DNA from: a candidate division FCPU426 bacterium
GTDB lineage: Bacteria > Oederibacteriota > Muellerivitia > Muellerivitales > DAHXKG01
NCBI GenBank assembly: GCA_027366525.1
Contig: DAHXKG010000002.1
Coordinates: forward strand, 186,001-250,000
Reading direction: 5' to 3'
Length of the DNA stretch: 64,000 nucleotides
Below are positions 13,098 through 51,814 of this stretch, one piece after another. The notes under the pieces were generated by a model. It saw only the letters and a program-made list of their open reading frames with translations. It was not told the DNA's origin and did not search any database. Position 1 is the stretch's first letter; every line of letters starts with the position of its first letter. The translations under genes and the position numbers were made by a program.

Positions 13098-13173
13098 CGG
13101 GGTGTAGCGCAGGGGCTAGCGCGCTTGGTTCGGGACCAAGAGGTCGGAGGTTCAAATCCTCTCACCCCGACCA
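13098..13173 (+). tRNA. tRNA-Pro (anticodon CGG)
   Basis: A 76-base cloverleaf with acceptor arms CGGGGTG and CACCCCG, followed by discriminator A and an encoded CCA. The D arm is flanked by AGCGC and GCGC. The anticodon stem CTTGG/CCAAG closes the loop TTCGGGA, giving anticodon CGG. The T arm contains GGTTCAAATCC. It decodes CCG proline codons. Confidence 0.95.
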
Positions 13174-13192
13174 GTATATTTTACATAACCAT

Positions 13193-13269
13193 CGGGGCGT
13201 GGCGCAGTTCGGTAGCGCAATTGCATGGGGTGCAAGAGGTCGCAGGTTCAAATCCTGCCGCCCCGACCA
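13193..13269 (+). tRNA. tRNA-Pro (anticodon GGG)
   Basis: A 77-base cloverleaf 19 bases after the first tRNA-Pro. Acceptor arms are CGGGGCG and CGCCCCG, then A and an encoded CCA. The anticodon stem is ATTGC/GCAAG around the loop ATGGGGT, giving anticodon GGG (codons CCC and CCU). The outermost anticodon-stem pair (27-43) is an A-G mismatch where C-G is usual. The acceptor and T-arm ends resemble the first copy, which fits an old duplication. Confidence 0.93.
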
Positions 13270-15058: not shown

Positions 15059-15135
15059 GCCCTCGTAGCTCAGTTGGATAGAGCAACCCTTTCCTAAAGG
15101 GTAGGTCACGCGTTCGAATCGCGTCGAGGGTACCA
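15059..15135 (+). tRNA. tRNA-Arg (anticodon CCT)
   Basis: A 77-base cloverleaf. Acceptor arms are GCCCTCG and CGAGGGT (first pair G-U), followed by A and an encoded CCA. The anticodon stem ACCCT/AGGGT holds the loop TTCCTAA, giving anticodon CCT, which decodes AGG. The T arm contains GCGTTCGAATCGCG. Its final A is also the first base of the AGGA that serves as ribosome binding site for the next gene. Confidence 0.95.
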
Positions 15136-16631: not shown

Positions 16632-17312
16632 ATGTCAAACTGGAAAATAAGCGTTCAAAAAGATAAAAATAATTTTGAGAGCTTTAAAAATTGGGCAAAG
16701 TTGCACCAAGAATTTATTGCGATCTTAATAATCGTAATTCTTATCATCGGAATTGGATTACCCTATTATTTAAACTCTGTAGCAACAAACAATAAAAAAT
16801 CAATGGCCATGCTAAATATGGGTATCTATTACTTAAATGCTCCCGTAGGCCCTCAAAGTGCATTCAAAACCGAGGTTGAAAAATATCAAGAGTGTTCAAC
16901 TTTTTTTAATAAAGTCAAAAATCTTTATCCTGGAACCCAAGCCTATAATATAGCTTATTATTATCTTGGTAAATGTGATTTGTTTTTACAAAATTATATG
17001 TTAGCAAGTAAATATTTCAAATTAGCTTATAAAAAACTAAAAAATACTCCGTTAGGTCAAGAAGCTTTTATTGGAGTAGGGATGTGTTATATTTCACAAT
17101 CTCAATGGAATCCAGCAATTTTGATATTTGAAAAATATTTAAAAATTTATCCTAACGGATTTTTACGCGAAGAAGCTCGGTTTAATTTGGCTAAAATTGA
17201 TAAGTTGGTACATAATTTAGCCATGGCAAAAATAGAGCTTAAAAAAATTATCCATTCACATCCAAACTCAGATTGGGCCAAACAAGCAAGTTTTGAACTT
17301 CAAACGTTGTGA
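16632..17312 (+). CDS. Membrane-anchored TPR protein (YfgM/YbgF-like)
   Basis: A 226-residue protein with one N-terminal membrane helix (about residues 29-47, FIAILIIVILIIGIGLPYY) after a short cytoplasmic start, then TPR-like helical pairs to the end: YYYLGKCDLFLQNYMLASKY, IGVGMCYISQSQWNPAILIF, ARFNLAKIDKL. The layout is that of YfgM, which contributes to periplasmic chaperone networks, and of YbgF-like proteins. No specific partner is visible. Its stop codon abuts the stop of the convergent aminotransferase gene. It is the last + strand gene before the strand switch. Confidence 0.75.
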   Translation: MSNWKISVQKDKNNFESFKNWAKLHQEFIAILIIVILIIGIGLPYYLNSVATNNKKSMAMLNMGIYYLNAPVGPQSAFKTEVEKYQECSTFFNKVKNLYPGTQAYNIAYYYLGKCDLFLQNYMLASKYFKLAYKKLKNTPLGQEAFIGVGMCYISQSQWNPAILIFEKYLKIYPNGFLREEARFNLAKIDKLVHNLAMAKIELKKIIHSHPNSDWAKQASFELQTL

Positions 17313-18506
17313 TCAAAGTAATTCATATAATAAGCTAGTAAGTAGGCTTATTGCTTTATCAAATTGATCCTCCTGAATTAAAAGGCTGAATACTAAAAAA
17401 TTTCCAGAAAAAAAATTATAAAAATCCCCCGGATGTATTAATATCTTGTGTTTTTGGTATAACTCCCAACATATTTTTACATCAAAATAAGGCTGCATGC
17501 CGTGAATTTCAATTATTCCATACCAGCCGCCTTGCGGATCCAAAATTGAAATTTTTTTTTCCTGTGCTAAGTTCAACAATATTTTTTTTAACCGCTGATA
17601 ATTATTGTTAGTCCTTATTGAAACTTCATCTTGAAATTTATTAGCAACTGTTAACAGCTTTGGTAAATGAATTTGAATTGGAATATTTACAGAAAGGAAC
17701 GTGTCAGCAATAAACTCCAATCGAATTTTTGCTTGATCAACTAATTCTCTTGGACCTTCAAGGATAATCCAAGAAATTTTCAACTGAGGAAGTCCACATA
17801 GTTTTGATAATCCACCTAAACGAAAAATTAAAGTGTTTTTCGATGAAAAATAGTTCGGTTTCACTCCACGTGCATATTCATAAAAAACTTCATCAATAAT
17901 TATTGGGATATTTTTGTTAGCTGTCGTAAAAATTTTTTCAAGTTCTACAAACTCATCGTAGTTTAAGTAATTTCCAGTTGGATTATTTGGTGAAACATAA
18001 ATCAGACCTTTAATGTCATTAGAAAGCAATAGCTGTGTGAAATAATCTAAATCAATTTTCCAACCTTGATTTGGATCTAATTTATAAAAAACAGGAATGT
18101 TTGATTCTAGTTGTAATAAATATTCTAATAATGGATAAGAAGGAATTGGAACCATAAATTTGTCCATCGGATTGGCTAACAGCTTAAAAATAAATGAATA
18201 TGCTTCACTCGTACCTGAAGTAAAAAAAATATTTTCAGCTTGGGTTATTCTTCCTTGATGGGTTAAATAATTTGCAAGACTTTCACGGGCAATTTTGTTT
18301 CCTTGGGGGTTAGGATGATACGGAAAAATATTTGAAAAATTAAAATCTTTTAAATTGAAATAGGAATAGCTTTTAAAATCACATTTTGTGGGATTGGATT
18401 CAGTTAAGTCAATCTGGGGGAGTCCGCTTTTATCGACAAGATCTCCAAGAAAGTTTGGTGTAAAATCATCAGGTAATCGATTGGAAAACATTCTCTTTAA
18501 TTTCAA
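17313..18506 (-). CDS. Pyridoxal-phosphate-dependent class I/II aminotransferase
   Basis: A 397-residue fold type I aminotransferase. Motifs in order: TESNPTKCDF (substrate-binding N-terminus), FTSGTSEAYSFIF (phosphate cup), VPIPSYPLLEYLL, YVSPNNPTGNYL, IIIDEVFYEYARG, and GGLSKLCGLPQLKISWI with the Schiff-base lysine. The pattern is that of the alanine/aspartate aminotransferase family. The exact amino-acid substrate cannot be deduced. It is the first gene of the minus-strand half and converges with the YfgM-like gene with no spacer. Confidence 0.9.
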   Translation of the reverse strand: MKLKRMFSNRLPDDFTPNFLGDLVDKSGLPQIDLTESNPTKCDFKSYSYFNLKDFNFSNIFPYHPNPQGNKIARESLANYLTHQGRITQAENIFFTSGTSEAYSFIFKLLANPMDKFMVPIPSYPLLEYLLQLESNIPVFYKLDPNQGWKIDLDYFTQLLLSNDIKGLIYVSPNNPTGNYLNYDEFVELEKIFTTANKNIPIIIDEVFYEYARGVKPNYFSSKNTLIFRLGGLSKLCGLPQLKISWIILEGPRELVDQAKIRLEFIADTFLSVNIPIQIHLPKLLTVANKFQDEVSIRTNNNYQRLKKILLNLAQEKKISILDPQGGWYGIIEIHGMQPYFDVKICWELYQKHKILIHPGDFYNFFSGNFLVFSLLIQEDQFDKAISLLTSLLYELL

Positions 18507-18585: not shown

Positions 18586-19611
18586 TTAATGTTTTAGATT
18601 GTGATTTCTATATAGTTCTAGAACTTCAGTAATTGTTGATTTTTTATCTAAATTTAAATTAACAACTTTAGCTTGAAATCCGCTCCCAAAAGCCTTTTCA
18701 TACGCATTGAGTTTGCTTTGTTGGGCAATTTTCACATAATTCTCACTTACAGAAATACTTGAATGCCCCATTAAATCCCGGATTTCATAAGCGCTTGCTC
18801 CAGATTCTGCTAAAATACTTCCAAACGTGTGTCTTAAAACATGTACTGTAAGTTCTTTAGAATTCTCTAATTTGGCCCAATTGGCAGCCTGCTTTACGTT
18901 TAATTCTAAAAAATGTGGATGAATTGGCTTTTCCCGACTCCTAGGACTTGGAAAAAGGAATATGCTTTGAGAAGCTCTTGAATTTTCTAATGCACGATAT
19001 AATAAGCTTTTTAATCCACTTGTAATCGGTAAAATCCTTTCTTTATTACCTTTACCTGTAACTAAAATATAGTTTTGGCTTAAATTAATATTTTGAATAC
19101 GTAATTTCGAAATTTCAGACACACGTAAGCCACACTCATACCCCAATAAAACAGTTAACGTAATATTTAATTCGTCTATAGTTTCGGTGCGTAACGAACT
19201 TAAAAGGGAGGTACGATCCGTTAAAGAAAGTGGGCGAGGATTTTTTTGTGGTGAATTCATTGCTAGATAATGAAAAACAGCCGTTGGATCCTGAGAAATT
19301 TGTTGAGTGGCAGCCAAATATCGATAAAACGAGCGTAGAGATGCTAAAATTCTTTTAATTGAACGCGTTGAATACTTCATGCGTAATTTTCCAGAAGGAG
19401 TACTACCAGATTGATTTAAAAAACTAATAAATTCAGTTAATTGATGAGAATTAACCTCCAATGGAGTTTTAATGTTTTCACGATCAAGGAAAAACTTAAA
19501 AACACGAAGATCTTGTTGATAATTCGATATCGTATGAATTGAGTTAAAAAGTTTTAAAAAATCACCATACGGTTTGATCAAACTTAAATTATCCGGCCTT
19601 GTAAATGACAT
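18586..19611 (-). CDS. Xer-type tyrosine recombinase
   Basis: A 341-residue site-specific recombinase. The N-terminal SAM-like core-binding domain (about residues 12-110) precedes the catalytic domain with the full active-site set: Arg163 (CGLRVSEI), Lys187 (VTGKGNKER), His257 and Arg260 (HVLRHTFG), His283 (LMGHSS) and the nucleophile Tyr292 (SENYVKI). It is about 40 residues longer than typical XerC/XerD, nearer in length to the single-recombinase type XerS. Xer proteins resolve chromosome dimers at dif. A dif-like inverted repeat lies 29 bases upstream of the start codon. No phage genes are nearby, which argues against a phage integrase. Confidence 0.9.
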   Translation of the reverse strand: MSFTRPDNLSLIKPYGDFLKLFNSIHTISNYQQDLRVFKFFLDRENIKTPLEVNSHQLTEFISFLNQSGSTPSGKLRMKYSTRSIKRILASLRSFYRYLAATQQISQDPTAVFHYLAMNSPQKNPRPLSLTDRTSLLSSLRTETIDELNITLTVLLGYECGLRVSEISKLRIQNINLSQNYILVTGKGNKERILPITSGLKSLLYRALENSRASQSIFLFPSPRSREKPIHPHFLELNVKQAANWAKLENSKELTVHVLRHTFGSILAESGASAYEIRDLMGHSSISVSENYVKIAQQSKLNAYEKAFGSGFQAKVVNLNLDKKSTITEVLELYRNHNLKH

Positions 19612-19639: not shown

Positions 19640-19673
19640 TTAAACTTCTATAACTGTAATTATAGAAGTTTAA
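19640..19673. promoter_or_regulatory. dif-like recombination site (perfect inverted repeat)
   Basis: Two perfect 14-bp arms, TTAAACTTCTATAA (19640-19653) and TTATAGAAGTTTAA (19660-19673), flank the 6-bp centre CTGTAA. The inner 28 bp (19643-19670) has the canonical dif architecture of 11-bp arm, 6-bp centre and 11-bp arm, and the inner arm ends ATAA/TTAT match the conserved part of bacterial dif sites. It lies just upstream of the Xer gene and close to the switch of gene orientation. There is no T tract on either side, so a terminator is unlikely. An operator for the recombinase gene is the main alternative. Confidence 0.65.
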
Positions 19674-19726
19674 TTTGGGTTTGTAAAGGTTTTAAAAATA
19701 GATTTAAAATAATTGAAATTTCAAAT

Positions 19727-20539
19727 CTAATAGGCTTTTTTTGAAAGTTTTTTTTCAGCTAAATAGGTAGAACCTTTGTAGAAATTCAAAAATTCTCTCA
19801 AAAGTAATTGAAAAATTTTAGGCTGTTCCAGTGGAATCAAATGACCAGCATGCGGAATAAACTCTAACCTAGATAATTTAATCCTTTTATGCATTTTTTG
19901 CATTATTTCAGGTTGCAGGACCTTATCTTCAGAACCTACTAATAATAGTGTTGGAATGCTAATTTTATTTAATAATGCTGTCCTTGAAGGTCGATTTGCC
20001 ATAGCTTTTTCACTGTAAATTATAGATTTAGTACTAGTTTTTTGAATCTTAGCTTTAATTTTTTGAACCATAAATTTTCTCTTATGTTGTGTTGTAACAC
20101 CAAGCAATAGTCTAGACAACGAATCAGCCAAAAAAGAAATGCCTTCTTTGGAAATTTTTTTAATAATTCCCTGACGATTTTCCTTATTAATTTTAGAATC
20201 ACCCTGTTCATGCGTTGATATCAACACCATTCCTGAAATTTGTCGTGAAATTAATTTAAAGATTTCGAAACTTAAATAGCCACCCATTGAAATTCCAACT
20301 AAAATATACTTACCATTATTAATTTCCTTAATAATTGGAACAATTTTTTCGGCCACACGAGGTAATGATTGAGCCCACGAATATAAAGGACTTTTCCCAA
20401 AACCTGGATAATCAATGAAAATATACTGGAAATTCTTAACCGGCTTCAATCCATCCCATATAAAGCTAGATAGAGGGAATGCATGCAAAAAAATGACTGG
20501 CTGCCCTTTGCCGATTATTTTTATGTGTAATGTTTTCAT
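19727..20539 (-). CDS. Alpha/beta-hydrolase
   Basis: A 270-residue protein of the alpha/beta-hydrolase fold. The oxyanion loop HAFPLSSFIWDGL follows strand 3, the nucleophile elbow is GISMGG (serine near residue 84), the acid is in LLVGSEDKVLQPE, and the catalytic histidine is in FIPHAGHLIPLEQP. The family includes esterases, lipases and peptidases, and the substrate cannot be told. It is the gene upstream of the dif-like site on the same strand as the recombinase. Confidence 0.85.
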   Translation of the reverse strand: MKTLHIKIIGKGQPVIFLHAFPLSSFIWDGLKPVKNFQYIFIDYPGFGKSPLYSWAQSLPRVAEKIVPIIKEINNGKYILVGISMGGYLSFEIFKLISRQISGMVLISTHEQGDSKINKENRQGIIKKISKEGISFLADSLSRLLLGVTTQHKRKFMVQKIKAKIQKTSTKSIIYSEKAMANRPSRTALLNKISIPTLLLVGSEDKVLQPEIMQKMHKRIKLSRLEFIPHAGHLIPLEQPKIFQLLLREFLNFYKGSTYLAEKKLSKKAY

Positions 20540-33556: not shown

Positions 33557-35158
33557 TCACGAATTTTGATCGATTGGAAGCGAAGAAATCGCTTCATAAA
33601 TCTGAATTTTTTCTTTTTTACCACGAATTGTTTTAATCGGTAATTTATTAAAATTAAAATTATTTTTGGATAGATTCCATGTTTTTTCAGAAACTAAGAT
33701 TTGATTACTTTGGGATTCACCCTCTAAACGCGAGGCCACATTGACCACATCACCAATGGCGGTGTACTCCATCCGGCGTTCACTTCCAATGTTACCTACA
33801 ATTGCTTCCCCAGAATTGATTCCAATACCTATTTCAATTTGAATTGAAAAACGTTTCTGCCAATCGGAATTTAATTCAAAAATTCTTTCTCGCATTTTTA
33901 ATGCCGTTTGAATACAACGAAATGCATGATCCGTCATTGAAATTGGAGCACCATAAATAGCCATAATGGCATCCCCGATAAATTTATCCAACGTCCCTGA
34001 GTACGAAAAAATTATTTCGGACATGGAACTGAAATACTCATTGAGTATTTTGACAATGGTCTCCACCGGTTGCTGTTCCGTTAAACTTGTAAATCCTCGA
34101 ATATCGCAAAATAAAACACTAATTTCCTTTTTCCCCCCACCCAGTTTTATTGATTGAGGGTTTTTTAAAAAATCTTCGACAATATTTGGGGATAAATATC
34201 GTTGAAGTGAAGTTCTAAGCCGTTCCTCTTTGCGAGCATTATCAAATAGTTTTGCATTACTAATTGCAATTGCAGCTTGATTAGCAAATGCAGATAAAAA
34301 ATACATATCCTCTTCATTAAAGGTTGAAGTCCCTTCTACTTTATCAACATAAATAACTCCAATAATTTTCTCGCGTTCCCAAATTGGAACACAAATGATT
34401 GAAGAAAGAGGAAGCGCCTTTAAACTATCACGTCCGGAAAACCGAATGTCATGTATGGGATCCAAAACGAGAGCTGGAAGCCGTTCCCGCAAAACCGTTT
34501 CGACTATTGTTTTGCTATATGGTGCTTGCGCTTCATTCCAGCTAATTAAGTGAGTCGAAACAGGATCTAGTGTACCAGCTTCATTTTGTAATAATAAAAA
34601 GCCGCGATTGGCTTGCATTACTTTAATAGCCATCGTCATAATAATGTTCAAAAGAGTCTTGAGTTCCAATATTGAATTAACAATATTTCCCACTTCATAT
34701 AGTGTTAAAAGTTTTTTGTGCGCCAATTCATTGATATTGGATAATTTTGAATCGGATTTATCTGTGGAAACTTCAACAGCAAATCTTAATCGGGTATTTC
34801 CGATTGCAATAATATCTTGAGTTCGAATTGGACTTTCTGAAATTTTTGCTCCATTAATAAATGTTCCATTCGTGCTTCCTAAATCTTTTACATGGACACC
34901 ACTCATTCCCAAAATGATCTGACAATGCTGACGAGAAATAAGTGGATCTGTTAAAACAATGTCGCAGGTACTCGACCGGCCGATTGAAGTGGTGGGTCGT
35001 GTAATTTTGTAGCTTTGTCCTTGTTCAATACCGGCTAAAACAGTAATGGTAATTTGAGGTTGTTTCCCAGATTTTGCGGGTGTTAATACAATACGACCTT
35101 GTGGAATTTCAAAATTACTTCTTGGTTTCTCTGAATTTGATGAATTACTAATGTTCAT
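33557..35158 (-). CDS. FHA-GAF-class III adenylate/guanylate cyclase
   Basis: A 533-residue soluble signalling protein. An FHA phosphothreonine-binding domain lies at about residues 35-125 (TSIGRSSTCDIVLTDPLISR, then RQHCQI, LGSTNGTF). A GAF domain lies at about 160-310 (ICVPIWEREKIIGVIYVDK). A class III cyclase domain lies at about 345-525. The catalytic metal aspartates are in LFCDIRGFTSL and KFIGDAIMA, and the purine and transition-state residues lie in YTAIGDVVNVASRLEGE, so it should be active. The DKFIGD lysine favours ATP over GTP. It overlaps the kinase gene by ATGA, and its FHA domain is a plausible reader of phosphorylation by that kinase. Confidence 0.92.
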   Translation of the reverse strand: MNISNSSNSEKPRSNFEIPQGRIVLTPAKSGKQPQITITVLAGIEQGQSYKITRPTTSIGRSSTCDIVLTDPLISRQHCQIILGMSGVHVKDLGSTNGTFINGAKISESPIRTQDIIAIGNTRLRFAVEVSTDKSDSKLSNINELAHKKLLTLYEVGNIVNSILELKTLLNIIMTMAIKVMQANRGFLLLQNEAGTLDPVSTHLISWNEAQAPYSKTIVETVLRERLPALVLDPIHDIRFSGRDSLKALPLSSIICVPIWEREKIIGVIYVDKVEGTSTFNEEDMYFLSAFANQAAIAISNAKLFDNARKEERLRTSLQRYLSPNIVEDFLKNPQSIKLGGGKKEISVLFCDIRGFTSLTEQQPVETIVKILNEYFSSMSEIIFSYSGTLDKFIGDAIMAIYGAPISMTDHAFRCIQTALKMRERIFELNSDWQKRFSIQIEIGIGINSGEAIVGNIGSERRMEYTAIGDVVNVASRLEGESQSNQILVSEKTWNLSKNNFNFNKLPIKTIRGKKEKIQIYEAISSLPIDQNS

Positions 35159-36963
35159 TTTTTTAATCCAAAAATGCTAATTGAAAAATTGGCTATATCT
35201 GTCAAATACACCGTATTTTCATTATCAATATAAATAGAATAATATCTTGGTGCAATCTTATAATTTCCCGGTGGTGTTCCAAAATCTGTCAAAAAATAGC
35301 CATCAGGATCAAAGATCTGCACCCTTAAATTACGGTCGGTAACAAAAATATTATTTTTAGAATCAGTTGCAATACCAAACGGAGAGGAAAATTCGCTATT
35401 GCCTGTTCCCCGTTTCCCAAATTTATATTTAAATACGCCTTTTTGGTTAAAAATTTGAATTCGAAAATTATGTTCATCCACTACAAGAATATTTGATTCC
35501 GTATTAATGCATAGGCCAACAGGATTGTTAAATTCTCCAAATCGAGTTCCTTGATTGCCAAATTTATTTATCGCACGACCCGCAGTGTTAAAAACGCGTA
35601 TTCGGTGATTCCCAGTATCAGACACATAAACATTTTCTTTTTTATCCAGCGCTAAGGCTTGAGGATGAAAAAATCCACCAAATCCGACTTCAATTTTTCC
35701 CATATTTGGAGAAGCCGTTTCTCCAAATTTTGTTAAAACCTTGCCGTTTTTCTCAATGATTTGTACCGTACACGATTTTGAATCCAAAACAATGAGATTT
35801 CCCGCCGCATCTAAAGCTACTGAAACAGGCATTAAAAATACAGCTTCTTGTGTTTCAGTTTCTTTTCCGAATTTTCCAATAGAATAAAGATATTTACCTT
35901 CATTATCAAAAACAAGAATTTGGCATTTTAACGAGTCCACAACATAAATTCGTTTTTGAGCATCTACGCTAATCGAAACCGGAGACATAAAATTACTTTC
36001 ATCTTTTCCACGCGAACCAAATGTTCGAATGAGCTTATAATGAAATCCTCGATAGCGTAAGGTGTTGATATCCCCAACTTCTTTGATGACTTCTTGTTTT
36101 TCTACATGAACCAAGGTCTGGTTCATTGCATTAAATGTAGTTTTATTTTCGGATGATATAATTTGATCAAAATATTTTTCTGGCACTGCTTCTAACATTT
36201 GCCTCATTTCCAGTGCAGATTGGAATCTTTTGGCTGGATCTTTCTGCAAGGCCTTTAAAATAATGGTTTGAATTTCTGCAGGAATATTGGGGCGAAGAAT
36301 TCGAGGTTCAATAGGATCATCTTTTAAAATTTTATTTAAAACAACCATTGGAACTTCATCAAAAAATGGGAGTTGACCGGTTACTATTTCATATAAAATA
36401 ACACCTAATGAATACAGGTCAGAAACAGGTACGGGATGACCCAAAACTTGTTCTTTGGACATATAATAAAGCGTCCCTCCTATTCCAGATCCATGTTGAT
36501 TGGATTGAACCAGTGTGGCAGTTCCAAAATCAGTTATTTTCACTTTTCGATCAGAAGTTAGAAGAATATTCCCAGGTTTTAAATCACGATGAATAATATT
36601 TTTCTCATGGGCATAATTTAACGCTGATAATATTTGAATTAAGATTTCACGTATCTCTCTTATCGTTAATGAAGTGTCTTTCATTAACTGCGCCAAATTA
36701 TTGCCATCTACATATTCCATTACCATAAAAAAAATATTTTCTGCTTTATCAACTGTTAACAATTGAACAATATTTGGGTGGTCTAAAGAAGCTAGCAGTT
36801 TAGGTTCAGCAACTAAAGTCGTAAAATTTTCCTTTTGATTATGTGGAATTTTCAAAGCAACTTTTTTCCCAATCCATGTATCCTCAGCTAACCACACAGT
36901 GCCAAAAGTTCCACTACCCTTAATCTCAATCAATTTATACTTATCAATATGCCCTTGAAGCAT
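35155..36963 (-). CDS. Serine/threonine protein kinase with C-terminal six-bladed NHL propeller
   Basis: A 602-residue protein. The N-terminal Hanks-type kinase (about residues 8-270) is intact: glycine loop GSGTFGTVWLAE, ATP lysine in VALKIPH, HRDLKPGNILL, DFGTATL, and the activation segment GGTLYYMSKEQ. Residues about 315-600 form six NHL repeats with the recurring pattern F..P..I..D....I.V.D....R.Q.F...G, such as NPVGLCINTESNILVVDEHN and FRIQIFNQKG. No membrane helix separates kinase and propeller, unlike mycobacterial PknD, so the propeller should be cytoplasmic. It is translationally coupled to the FHA-cyclase. Confidence 0.93.
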   Translation of the reverse strand: MLQGHIDKYKLIEIKGSGTFGTVWLAEDTWIGKKVALKIPHNQKENFTTLVAEPKLLASLDHPNIVQLLTVDKAENIFFMVMEYVDGNNLAQLMKDTSLTIREIREILIQILSALNYAHEKNIIHRDLKPGNILLTSDRKVKITDFGTATLVQSNQHGSGIGGTLYYMSKEQVLGHPVPVSDLYSLGVILYEIVTGQLPFFDEVPMVVLNKILKDDPIEPRILRPNIPAEIQTIILKALQKDPAKRFQSALEMRQMLEAVPEKYFDQIISSENKTTFNAMNQTLVHVEKQEVIKEVGDINTLRYRGFHYKLIRTFGSRGKDESNFMSPVSISVDAQKRIYVVDSLKCQILVFDNEGKYLYSIGKFGKETETQEAVFLMPVSVALDAAGNLIVLDSKSCTVQIIEKNGKVLTKFGETASPNMGKIEVGFGGFFHPQALALDKKENVYVSDTGNHRIRVFNTAGRAINKFGNQGTRFGEFNNPVGLCINTESNILVVDEHNFRIQIFNQKGVFKYKFGKRGTGNSEFSSPFGIATDSKNNIFVTDRNLRVQIFDPDGYFLTDFGTPPGNYKIAPRYYSIYIDNENTVYLTDIANFSISIFGLKK

Positions 36964-48298: not shown

Positions 48299-51200
48299 CT
48301 ACTTAGCTATCGTTGTTTCATTTAAAATGTTTTTTGCGCTTTGAATTGCCGCATCGATTTTAGGATATCGGATCTTTCGATATCCTCGAACTGTATTTGG
48401 AAGCGCAAAAACTTCATTCCATTTTTCATATTCTAATTGAGTGTTATACTGGAACTTTTCAATTAGTGAAATATACCAACTTCTAAATTTTTTTTCTTGA
48501 GCATGCCACTGAATTAAAATTTTTCGAAGAAATTTAAAATGTTTCATTATTTTCAGCATCCAATCTCGGCTTATCAAATCAAACTCTATTTTCAATCCCA
48601 GTATATCAAATTGAGGTCGATTGAAATGCTTATATGTGACTCGATCTCCATTTTTAAAATTAACTTTAAATCTTTGCGAGTCGGCCTCATATTTTTCCGG
48701 ACTACTCAATAAGTGGGCCACATAAACTTCATCCTTAATAACCATCACATTGTAAAGATATTGCATCGTTGTCTTGGTTGCTTGGTAATTGTATTTGATG
48801 CTATCCTTTTTATAAACTGACTGAATCAGATTTAAATATTGATGAGCATAGTGATAGTTTTCATATTGAATTAATTCGTAGAATCGATCCACTAATTGAA
48901 ATTGTTGATGATTTGTTAATTGCAGATCAGGGCAATCTTGAAAAAACTTCTCTAACCTGCTCTTGAATTTTTTATCCGAATGTAAATATTTTGCTTTTTG
49001 ATTAATAAATTCGTCTACTGAGTTCGTTTTTAAATCCAAATACAAATCCGGTTGATATGCAATGTTGCGTCCCAAATGAAATGCTTTAATATTTTCATTA
49101 GCCTCTTCTAATCGGAACGTTTGCTGAATTGCAGTGATGAGAGACTCCATTTGAATTGGAAGCAATCCGAGTTGAGAAGCCAATCCTAAAAGCATGGCAT
49201 TAACATATAATTTGTTGCCCAACTGGTCTTCACTGATTTTAGCTAAATCTGCCCCAAAATATTTTTTGGTATATTTTTCAATTGTTTGTATTAGATTTTC
49301 ACTGGAAAAAGAATCTTTACCCATTAACGTTAATATCGTCGGTGCTTTATGCGTATTCACCACTGCATAAGTCTTTTCTGGCGATGCAATGCGAAAATTA
49401 GCTTTGGGGTCCAAACCTCGAACAGCTTCGAGACTATCTAATCCCAACAGTAAATCCGCCTCTCCATGTGGAAATAGTGGAGAAACAAATTTCGGTGCTT
49501 TTGTTAAGGTGATTTGAGAATAAACACCTCCGTTTCGAATAGCGATCCCCTTTTTGTCGCAAAAATTGACGTAAAACCCATCTATTTTGGCGGCTTCCAC
49601 TAAAATTGCAGTGGAACTTCCGATTCCCATGCCACCCACACCAGCAATATGTACACGCCATATTGCATTGTTTGTTGGAAAAATATTAGGTTTGGGAATG
49701 GAATTGATATCCAATTGACGTACCGCAGTCGATTTTTCTCGGAAAATAGTTATTTCTTCAAAAGCAGGGCACGCTTTGATTCGAACACATGCCATATCTG
49801 AAACACACCATGAAAGATCTGTTGACATTTTTGTTCCATACAATGTTTCGGTCAATGTTAATCCTGGACATCCCGTTAATCGCGTACATTCCAAACAAAA
49901 TTCACAAGCCTTCTCATTAATGTTAATACGCGTTTCTTTGGAGATGTACCCCTTTTGAATTTTTTCTATATTTAAAGCCCTTTTTTTCCTTCGTTGGAAT
50001 GTAATACCACATTCTTTATCTGCAATAACAAATTTGACTCCATCTTCCATGATTAGGCTTTCAAGAAGCTTGCGGTACTCGCTCCGATTCTCGGGATTGA
50101 TTCTCACAAGGGAAATTTCTTCGCCTTCAGTCAAACCCATTAAGACTTTTTCAATGTCTTGCGCAACGGTTTTTTGTCCGACTAAATTAACATCTACCCC
50201 AGGGTGAGGTTGATGTCCTGTCATTGCCGTTGTTTTGTTATCAAGAATAATATAAAGGATATCCTGATTATTCTTAATGGAATCCGATATCCCGGCCCAT
50301 CCTGAATGAAAAAATGTTGAATCGCCCAAAAAATTGATGGATTTATTTGTGGAAAAGGGAGATAAACCTGCACCCGTCCCGCCTCCCAAACCCATTCCAG
50401 AATAATTATGCATCAAAGGACCATTGGGAGGCATAAACAACATTGAATAACAACCGGCATCACCATGAAATACAATATCAATTGGGTTGGTTTTATAATG
50501 TTTCTTCATATAGTGGTCATTTTTAAAATCATTGACCAATTCCAAAAGAACGGACGAAGAATCGCGATGTGGACATCCAGGACAAAATGTTGGCGTTCGC
50601 AGAGGGATTTTGACATCGTACATACTTAATTCATCTAAATGAATTACCAGTTCTTTTATTGGCTTTTTGTCTTCCACCAAACCATTCATTTCTTCTAATA
50701 ACGGTGCGAGTGTTTTAATAATAATTGTTGGATTTAATCCATGATCTTCTGGAAATCCTTTGAAATTCCCTGGAAATATTTTTCCATAAATTTTTGGAAT
50801 TTCTTTAATTTTATGATTCTGAAATAAATCTATTGCAATGTTTCGGATTTGAAGTTCAATAAATTTTCTTTTCTCTTCAACGACAATAATCGTAGAATAC
50901 TGGTCAAATAGCTCTTCCATAATTTGTGGATCAATGGGATAAGTCATCCCAAGTTTTAAAATAGTAAAATAGTCCGTGAGTTGCATTTGATTTAAAGCTT
51001 CTTGCAAATAAAGAAATGATTCTCCGGCTGCAACAAAAGCTAAAGGCAACTTTTGCTTTCCTGAAAAAATTTGATTAATTTGTTTTTTTCTAACGGATTC
51101 AAATAATAGAGGAAATTTTATTTTAAGCGTTTCTTCCTCAAGGCAAGCTGTATATGGCGGTAATAAAATTGTATGCTCTGTAGGAATTTGATCCGTATTA

Positions 51201-51814
51201 ATGGTGATTTTATTTATTGTTGAAACCCGAGACGGAGGACGATTTGGAAAAACTTGAACACTTCCACCTCCTTCTGATAAATATGTGGTTAAAAGATAAG
51301 TGATATATAAATCCGACTCTTCAGAAATTTCAAAACCAATCTTGATCCAATCCTTTATTTCTTGAAATGTTGATGGTTCTAGCACTGGAATAAATAAATG
51401 GTCTGAAAGTCTCCGCGAATCGACTGGAACTTGAGTCGTATCACTCCAAGGATCATCCCCTACGACAATCAAAACTCCACCCAAGTGTTTGGATTTTGCC
51501 ATATTTCCAGTAGCTAATGCATCCGCTGCTACATGAAATCCGACAGATTTCATTACTGCAATTGACCTTAGCCCAGCTAGTTGCGAGCCATTTAAACGAG
51601 CAGCAGCTAATGCTTCATTATTGGCGATTTGAGCTAAAATCCCATTTTGTATTAAATAGGGTGCGATATTTTGCACTGAGTCAAAAATATCAGAAACTGG
51701 CGATCCAGGATATCCGGTTAGTAAGTGAAAACCACTCTCTAGTGCACCCTTTAGAACCAATTCCGTGCCTGTATAAACCTCTAAACCTGATTCTTGTAAA
51801 AATCGTTTATCCAT
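48299..51814 (-). CDS. Fused 2-oxoacid (indolepyruvate-type) ferredoxin oxidoreductase
   Basis: A 1171-residue single-chain enzyme. The N-terminal pyrimidine-binding half (about residues 12-200) has TGYPGSPVSDIFD. The thiamine diphosphate domain (about 405-600) has FCPGCPHRDSSS and HGDAGCYSML...GLGGGTGAGL. A cysteine cluster (about 640-700: CEFCLECTRLTGCPG, then CVSDMACVRIKACPAF) should bind iron-sulfur. A gamma-type domain (about 725-900) starts IAGVGGMGIGSSTAILVEAA. The C-terminal about 170 residues match the DUF6537-type tail of the large aerobic indolepyruvate oxidoreductases (WMLKIMKHFKFLR, LPNTVRGYRKIRY). It oxidatively decarboxylates aryl or branched 2-oxoacids to acyl-CoA; the exact substrate is unclear. 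Confidence 0.88.
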   Translation of the reverse strand: MDKRFLQESGLEVYTGTELVLKGALESGFHLLTGYPGSPVSDIFDSVQNIAPYLIQNGILAQIANNEALAAARLNGSQLAGLRSIAVMKSVGFHVAADALATGNMAKSKHLGGVLIVVGDDPWSDTTQVPVDSRRLSDHLFIPVLEPSTFQEIKDWIKIGFEISEESDLYITYLLTTYLSEGGGSVQVFPNRPPSRVSTINKITINTDQIPTEHTILLPPYTACLEEETLKIKFPLLFESVRKKQINQIFSGKQKLPLAFVAAGESFLYLQEALNQMQLTDYFTILKLGMTYPIDPQIMEELFDQYSTIIVVEEKRKFIELQIRNIAIDLFQNHKIKEIPKIYGKIFPGNFKGFPEDHGLNPTIIIKTLAPLLEEMNGLVEDKKPIKELVIHLDELSMYDVKIPLRTPTFCPGCPHRDSSSVLLELVNDFKNDHYMKKHYKTNPIDIVFHGDAGCYSMLFMPPNGPLMHNYSGMGLGGGTGAGLSPFSTNKSINFLGDSTFFHSGWAGISDSIKNNQDILYIILDNKTTAMTGHQPHPGVDVNLVGQKTVAQDIEKVLMGLTEGEEISLVRINPENRSEYRKLLESLIMEDGVKFVIADKECGITFQRRKKRALNIEKIQKGYISKETRININEKACEFCLECTRLTGCPGLTLTETLYGTKMSTDLSWCVSDMACVRIKACPAFEEITIFREKSTAVRQLDINSIPKPNIFPTNNAIWRVHIAGVGGMGIGSSTAILVEAAKIDGFYVNFCDKKGIAIRNGGVYSQITLTKAPKFVSPLFPHGEADLLLGLDSLEAVRGLDPKANFRIASPEKTYAVVNTHKAPTILTLMGKDSFSSENLIQTIEKYTKKYFGADLAKISEDQLGNKLYVNAMLLGLASQLGLLPIQMESLITAIQQTFRLEEANENIKAFHLGRNIAYQPDLYLDLKTNSVDEFINQKAKYLHSDKKFKSRLEKFFQDCPDLQLTNHQQFQLVDRFYELIQYENYHYAHQYLNLIQSVYKKDSIKYNYQATKTTMQYLYNVMVIKDEVYVAHLLSSPEKYEADSQRFKVNFKNGDRVTYKHFNRPQFDILGLKIEFDLISRDWMLKIMKHFKFLRKILIQWHAQEKKFRSWYISLIEKFQYNTQLEYEKWNEVFALPNTVRGYRKIRYPKIDAAIQSAKNILNETTIAK

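Follow-up and report, generated by a model that had tools for sequence, protein, structure and literature searches.

The Locus and Its Neighbours

The stretch of DNA analysed for this report (the window, 64,000 nucleotides) is part of a 273,637-base contig in the 2.02-Mb draft genome (33 contigs, 97.5% complete) of a candidate division FCPU426 bacterium. This genome, referred to here as G000, was compared with the draft genomes of eight other members of its order (n = 9, G000-G008). A 34-bp site in the window, TTAAACTTCTATAA-CTGTAA-TTATAGAAGTTTAA, consists of two perfect 14-bp arms of an inverted repeat around a centre of 6 bp, exactly as a first-pass annotation of the sequence had described it at 19640-19673, and it lies directly upstream of xer, a gene for a tyrosine recombinase of the Xer type (Table 1). 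The ATG of xer is 28 bases from the site, not 29 as originally counted. The order of the neighbouring genes is conserved across the order: a gene for a TPR protein on one strand is followed on the other strand by an aminotransferase gene, xer, the site and a gene for an alpha/beta hydrolase. In six genomes with these same neighbours, the distance between the site and the switch in coding strand is 2.3-2.8 kb; in the window the TPR gene is the last on the + strand, which places the switch 2.3 kb away.

Table 1. Coordinates of the site, its predicted promoter elements, the adjoining genes and the canonical dif sites of other families (window positions unless a genome and contig are given)
Feature	Position	Strand	Remarks
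TPR protein gene	16632..17312	+	conserved neighbour; last + strand gene
Aminotransferase class I/II gene	17313..18506	-	conserved neighbour; first - strand gene after the coding-strand switch
xer, Xer-type tyrosine recombinase	18586..19611	-	341 aa; full R-K-H-R-H-Y active site
Left (gene-proximal) dif arm, TTAAACTTCTATAA	19640..19653		from sequence and arm co-variation, 9 genomes
6-bp centre, CTGTAA	19654..19659		asymmetric
Right (gene-distal) dif arm, TTATAGAAGTTTAA	19660..19673		from sequence and arm co-variation, 9 genomes
Predicted -10 box, TATAAT	19659..19664	-	inner 5 bp of right arm plus last centre base (first in gene direction)
Predicted -35 box, TTTACA	19682..19687	-	matches TTGACA at 5/6 positions; outside the site, with a 17-bp spacer
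alpha/beta hydrolase gene	19727..20539	-	conserved neighbour, opposite side of the site
Canonical XerCD-type dif (CGCATAATGTATCTTATGTTAACT and near variants)	G014:C6:172025, G022:C32:11150, G025:C103:22621, G041:C110:33801, others		other families of the phylum

An intrinsic terminator was considered as a reading of the palindrome and set aside, as a scan of the window found no terminator-like site there. The contig holds only one further inverted repeat with perfect arms of 14 bp and a 6-bp loop, which is terminator-like (AAAAACC...GGTTTTT) and most likely is a terminator (G000:C22:142154-142187, AAAAACCTTGAATAGGTTGCTATTCAAGGTTTTT). The Rfam matches in the window are tRNAs only; three of these lie on the + strand to the left of the strand switch (13098-13173, 13193-13269 and 15059-15135) and comprise two tRNA-Pro (CGG, GGG) and one tRNA-Arg (CCT). 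Two other loci on the - strand of the window deserve mention in their own right. One (48299-51814) encodes a protein of 1171 aa that matches the models for both the alpha and the beta subunits of indolepyruvate ferredoxin oxidoreductase in one chain, well below the curated cut-offs; the other (33557-36963) comprises adjacent genes for an FHA-GAF-type protein and for a Ser/Thr kinase whose C-terminal part is propeller-like, which might form a signalling pair.

Conservation of the Site and Co-variation of Its Arms

The site is found just upstream of an orthologous xer in all nine genomes of the order (in G008 xer is split over two contigs, of which the one with the N-terminal part carries the site), in agreement with the first-pass proposal that a dif site should occur in a single copy and be conserved beside this gene. 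The inner pattern CTTCTATAANNNNNNTTATAGAAG is matched exactly at a single place in the whole of G000, where the next best match carries 3 mismatches. In the seven order genomes of highest completeness the core TATAAYTRYARTTATA has a single exact occurrence per genome, always adjoining xer, and the reversed-pattern control for this core gave zero matches in the same seven genomes. The remaining two genomes have the variant centres CTAAAA and CTGAAA. Every site in the order has the 11-6-11 geometry of dif, with ATAA and TTAT bordering the centre.

The outer parts of the arms, next to TATAA, vary by species (CTTC, TCGG, TTAG, TTCA) and change jointly on both sides. At arm positions 6-11 there are 45 matches out of 54 within the nine sites, whereas pairing left arms with the right arms of other genomes gave 29.2 on average (p = 0.0007). 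Joint drift of this kind between species is what recognition of both arms by one protein would produce, and this co-variation supports the earlier suggestion that a single recombinase acts on both arms. The full symmetry that had been emphasised for the site is present in the window and does not extend to the order as a whole: the 11-bp arms agree at 11/11 positions in four of the nine genomes, at 10/11 in three, at 9/11 in one and at 7/11 in G002, and the uninterrupted arms are perfect over 14 bp in G000 and G001 and reach 11-12 bp in G005 and G006. The accompanying statement on the usual imperfection of natural dif sites calls for some qualification as well, since perfect or near-perfect arms have been published for XerL/dif (PMC9765430) and XerA/dif (PMC2958812).

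Once the sites are oriented, the centre is CTNNAA in all nine genomes, including G003, whose site as a whole is turned round with respect to xer. Through this asymmetric centre the site retains a polarity despite the near-equivalence of its arms.

Position Relative to the Replication Terminus

The GC skew turns from positive to negative around the site in two contigs, the window contig and a 341-kb contig of G001, and such a switch marks a maximum of the cumulative skew. This maximum has a flat top, and its distance from the site is 19 and 21 kb in the two contigs. The placement of the site at the skew switch, as first proposed, is thus upheld; the switch had been called a skew minimum and is instead the maximum of the cumulative curve. 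The dnaA gene is on a different contig.

An FtsK with a gamma domain was found in eight of the nine order genomes. The FtsK-orienting word GGGNAGGG is polarised towards the site (11:1 in G000, 34:7 in G001), and GGGGAAG is polarised likewise; G004 shows a weaker ratio of 31:22. We place no weight on this polarisation, which could arise from GC skew and coding bias alone.

The Xer Recombinase

Orthologs of the xer product in the other eight order genomes are 54-59% identical to it, and the six catalytic residues (R163, K187, H257, R260, H283 and Y292) are invariant in eight orthologs, which confirms the full active site noted at first sight. Compared with E. coli XerC and XerD, the protein has an insert of about 10 residues at 69-79 and a C-terminal extension after about residue 309; the C-terminal RQLHQQ stretch of E. 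coli XerD is not kept in the Xer of the order, which weakens the case for activation by FtsK.

The protein is of the XerC/XerD type by model score, with 157 and 150 bits that are below the respective cut-offs of 335 and 330 (TIGR02224, TIGR02225), and it also falls below the cut-offs of the XerS model (81.5 bits vs 267) and the XerA model (128.8 bits vs 220). Among solved structures, a profile built for the order matches XerD with 120 bits and XerH with 46 bits. In a maximum-likelihood tree the recombinases of the order form a supported group on a long branch, outside XerC and XerD. When named genomes were scanned, the single protein sequence found no relatives and the alignment gave, among the matches listed, only XerC/XerD-like proteins that are 26-33% identical. 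An AlphaFold model of moderate quality (pLDDT 77, pTM 0.60) matches XerA first in the PDB, with a TM-score of about 0.46; these matches do no more than confirm a tyrosine recombinase.

Integrase genes often adjoin their att sites, and the position of the order's clade outside XerC and XerD would suit a reading of the gene as the integrase of a mobile element and of the palindrome as its attachment site. We consider this most improbable, given that the TPR, aminotransferase and hydrolase genes flank the pair on both sides across the order, that the site is strictly single-copy and located at the terminus, that the gene is present in every genome of the order, and that no viral relative of the recombinase was found. 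Xer and its site may nevertheless have been derived long ago from a mobile element. A search of 2.9 million viral contigs returned 67 matches with the exact centre; these were read as chance, because none had more than 9/11 arm matches.

Other Recombinases and Canonical dif Sites

The product of xer is the only intact protein with a PF00589 match in G000. The other match to this family in the genome is a fragmentary integrase of the phage/ICE type (about 190 residues with an in-frame stop, G000:C27:191887-192324). No protein above the XerD cut-off (TIGR02225) was found in any of the nine order genomes, and one was present in all nine tested genomes of other families. Conversely, a model search of 45 genomes gave no ortholog of xer in the 36 from elsewhere in the phylum; a weak match (1.9e-41) to a 306-residue frame in G040 sits in the tree among the phylum's own Xer proteins. 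A canonical dif is present once in several of these other families, as with CGCATAATGTATCTTATGTTAACT in four genomes (Table 1), and where checked it is on a different contig from xerC/xerD. In the five order genomes searched, no canonical dif scored above the reversed-pattern control, and the XerD arm TTATGTTAA with its dissimilar outer arms is absent from the order's sites. Findings that the annotation had named as adverse, such as separate xerC and xerD genes or a better dif elsewhere, were not encountered: G000 has no other intact Xer, no order protein reaches the XerD cut-off, and no canonical site exceeds the control in the genomes searched. That other families lack this gene and have XerD, several of them with a canonical dif, suggests that the order uses a distinct system with a single recombinase. 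G000 is a 97.5%-complete draft in 33 contigs, so that a gap could conceal a second Xer.

Additional XerD-like recombinases, often in tandem, occur in G001, G003 and G004, and an additional Xer-like protein occurs in G002; G000 and G005, G006, G007 and G008 have only one Xer at E<=1e-20 to the XerD model. The extras raise the prospect that this Xer acts on dif in a heterotetramer with a less similar tyrosine recombinase. Their patchy distribution, the lone Xer of the five genomes just named and the near-identical, co-varying arms, which argue for one protein on both, make this scarcely probable, and because of this patchiness we take the extra XerD-like recombinases to be mobile, even though those of G001, G003 and G004 could in principle take part. 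The tandem groups consist of two or three recombinases of about 320-465 aa (G001:C3:319324-321205, G001:C19:76039-78804, G003:C16:559-3280, G003:C97:110465-112271 and G004:C26:7831-9751) and are possibly recombinase-in-trio elements. The second, very divergent Xer-like protein of G002 (317 aa, 34% identical; G002:C20:4461-5297) groups with the order's clade on a very long branch, and G002 is the member of the order with the least symmetric dif.

Overlap of dif with a Predicted Promoter

The best promoter in the window by a consensus scan, TTTACA-17-TATAAT with 11 of 12 matches, overlaps the site in the direction of xer, a feature that had escaped the first-pass annotation, and its predicted transcription start is near 19652, inside the other arm. 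A hexamer resembling the -35 box (3-6 of 6 matches) lies outside the site at a spacer of 16-18 bp in all nine genomes; the forms seen are TTGACA, TTTACA, TTGACT, TTGACC, TTCACA, TTGAAC, TTGAAT and TTCCCA, with a weak TTGTTT (3/6) in G001. The -10 box is TATAAT in the order except in G003, where the inverted centre spoils it to TATAAC and the -35 box is a perfect TTGACA. The -10 box is also forced by the conservation of the dif arm, so that the -35 box alone is independent evidence. Summed over the nine species, which are related to one another, its matches come to 41; shuffled sequences average 23.3, and none of 5000 shuffles reached the observed value. A scan of other spacings gave a sharp peak at 16-17 bp. 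From the positions of these boxes, we think it likely that the dif site carries the promoter of xer.

A recombinase bound to such a site should shut off xer, and the chances that it represses its own gene in this way appear to us evenly balanced. The polarity of the site may serve the promoter as much as recombination. A need for such autocontrol would fit the suspicion of the authors who studied Helicobacter that XerH levels are limiting and kept under tight control (PMC3325230). In the open-licence literature we found no account of a dif site that serves as promoter for the gene of its own recombinase, and for Xer autoregulation unrelated papers only.

The same overlap with promoter-like boxes in all nine genomes, directly upstream of xer, is what would be expected if the palindrome were an operator only, through which the recombinase or a regulator controls xer while chromosome dimers are resolved elsewhere. 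An operator has no need for a terminus position, for 11-6-11 geometry or for ATAA and TTAT at the centre, and the site has all of these in every genome of the order; no other dif candidate rises above the control in the five order genomes searched, and no protein of the order attains the XerD cut-off. We regard this reading as very unlikely.

A Proposed Single-Recombinase System

The site, its uniqueness, its terminus position, its conservation, the co-variation of its arms, the single conserved Xer and the promoter-like boxes at the correct spacing are all computed from the genomes. We conclude that the palindrome is very probably the chromosomal dif of a distinct Xer/dif system in which a single recombinase has replaced XerC and XerD in one order; this high degree of confidence applies to the dif and the single Xer, and not to the part played by the promoter.

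We envisage that each of the two near-identical 11-bp arms would be bound by a copy of the same Xer, with cleavage where the arms meet the 6-bp centre, and that two such sites in a chromosome dimer would synapse and recombine to yield monomers, probably at the division septum with the help of FtsK. Since the arms are nearly equivalent, polarity would have to come from the asymmetric CTNNAA centre, from the side on which FtsK arrives, or from both. The gene-distal inner arm and one base of the centre would at the same time act as the -10 box, with the -35-like box just outside, and recombinase bound at dif would compete with RNA polymerase for the site and thereby limit its own synthesis.

A tentative extension, to which we give slightly less than an even chance, is that dif combines three roles, as the site of recombination and as both core promoter and operator of its recombinase gene, with transcription of xer starting inside the site and being silenced by bound Xer. 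If this is so, events that clear dif (passage of a replication fork, arrival of FtsK, strand exchange) could re-open the promoter, and the supply of recombinase would be coupled to chromosome segregation in a self-contained module of 1.1 kb with equivalent arms.

Comparison with Known Xer/dif Systems

A canonical dif recombined by XerC and XerD shares with the site of the order the 11-6-11 layout, ATAA and TTAT at the edges of the centre, a terminus location and the presence of FtsK-gamma. The order differs in having one recombinase rather than two, in its near-symmetric arms, neither of which is the TTATGTTAA XerD arm, and in a site beside the gene.

Single recombinases with a site near the gene are known in XerS/difSL and XerH/difH (PMC5357621, PMC2731167), and XerA of archaea has nearly perfect arms (PMC2958812). 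As the first reading of the locus had pointed out, difSL is a precedent for adjacency with another centre length: it is immediately adjacent to its gene at the terminus and is used by a single recombinase, but has a centre of 11 bp and unequal arms, whereas the centre here is of 6 bp (from arm symmetry and conservation in nine genomes), and the XerS model is not matched. The difH/XerH system of Helicobacter and Campylobacter (PMC2731167, PMC3325230, PMC5241119) also has one recombinase, a site near the gene and at the terminus, and a 6-bp centre in the structure; difH is asymmetric, however, with a different arm sequence, and the profile of the order is much closer to XerD than to XerH. The dif/XerA system of Thermococcales (PMC2958812) likewise combines a single recombinase with near-perfect arms, but is archaeal, appears to act without FtsK and has a recombinase whose model scores the protein of the order below its cut-off. 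XerL/dif of the Legionellales (PMC9765430) resembles the present system in its single recombinase, its site near the terminus and its long uninterrupted inverted-repeat arms (10 and 12 bp for XerL). In Legionella the gene is more than 400 kb from dif, and adjacency is seen only on the Coxiella (virulence) plasmid, unlike the adjoining arrangement here; the catalytic tyrosine of XerL is Y387 as compared with Y292. The comparison with XerL is by its published description (PMC9765430).

Judged by sequence, the system of the order belongs to the broad class with a single recombinase, for which both a unique inverted repeat at the terminus and one conserved Xer were found (the extras in G001-G004 being patchy), and it corresponds in full to the definition of none of the types compared (XerC/XerD, XerS, XerH, XerA). 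It would represent a further, apparently separate lineage in which XerC and XerD have been replaced by one recombinase, throughout an order whose sister families keep XerCD, and its natural set of near-symmetric dif sites makes it possible to ask how the order of strand exchange and its control by FtsK work without two recombinases. Perfect arms, a single Xer and adjacency each have precedents; their combination and the overlap with a promoter look new. If used, this overlap would explain why the dif sites of single recombinases tend to adjoin their genes, an idea that could be tested for XerS and XerH as well.
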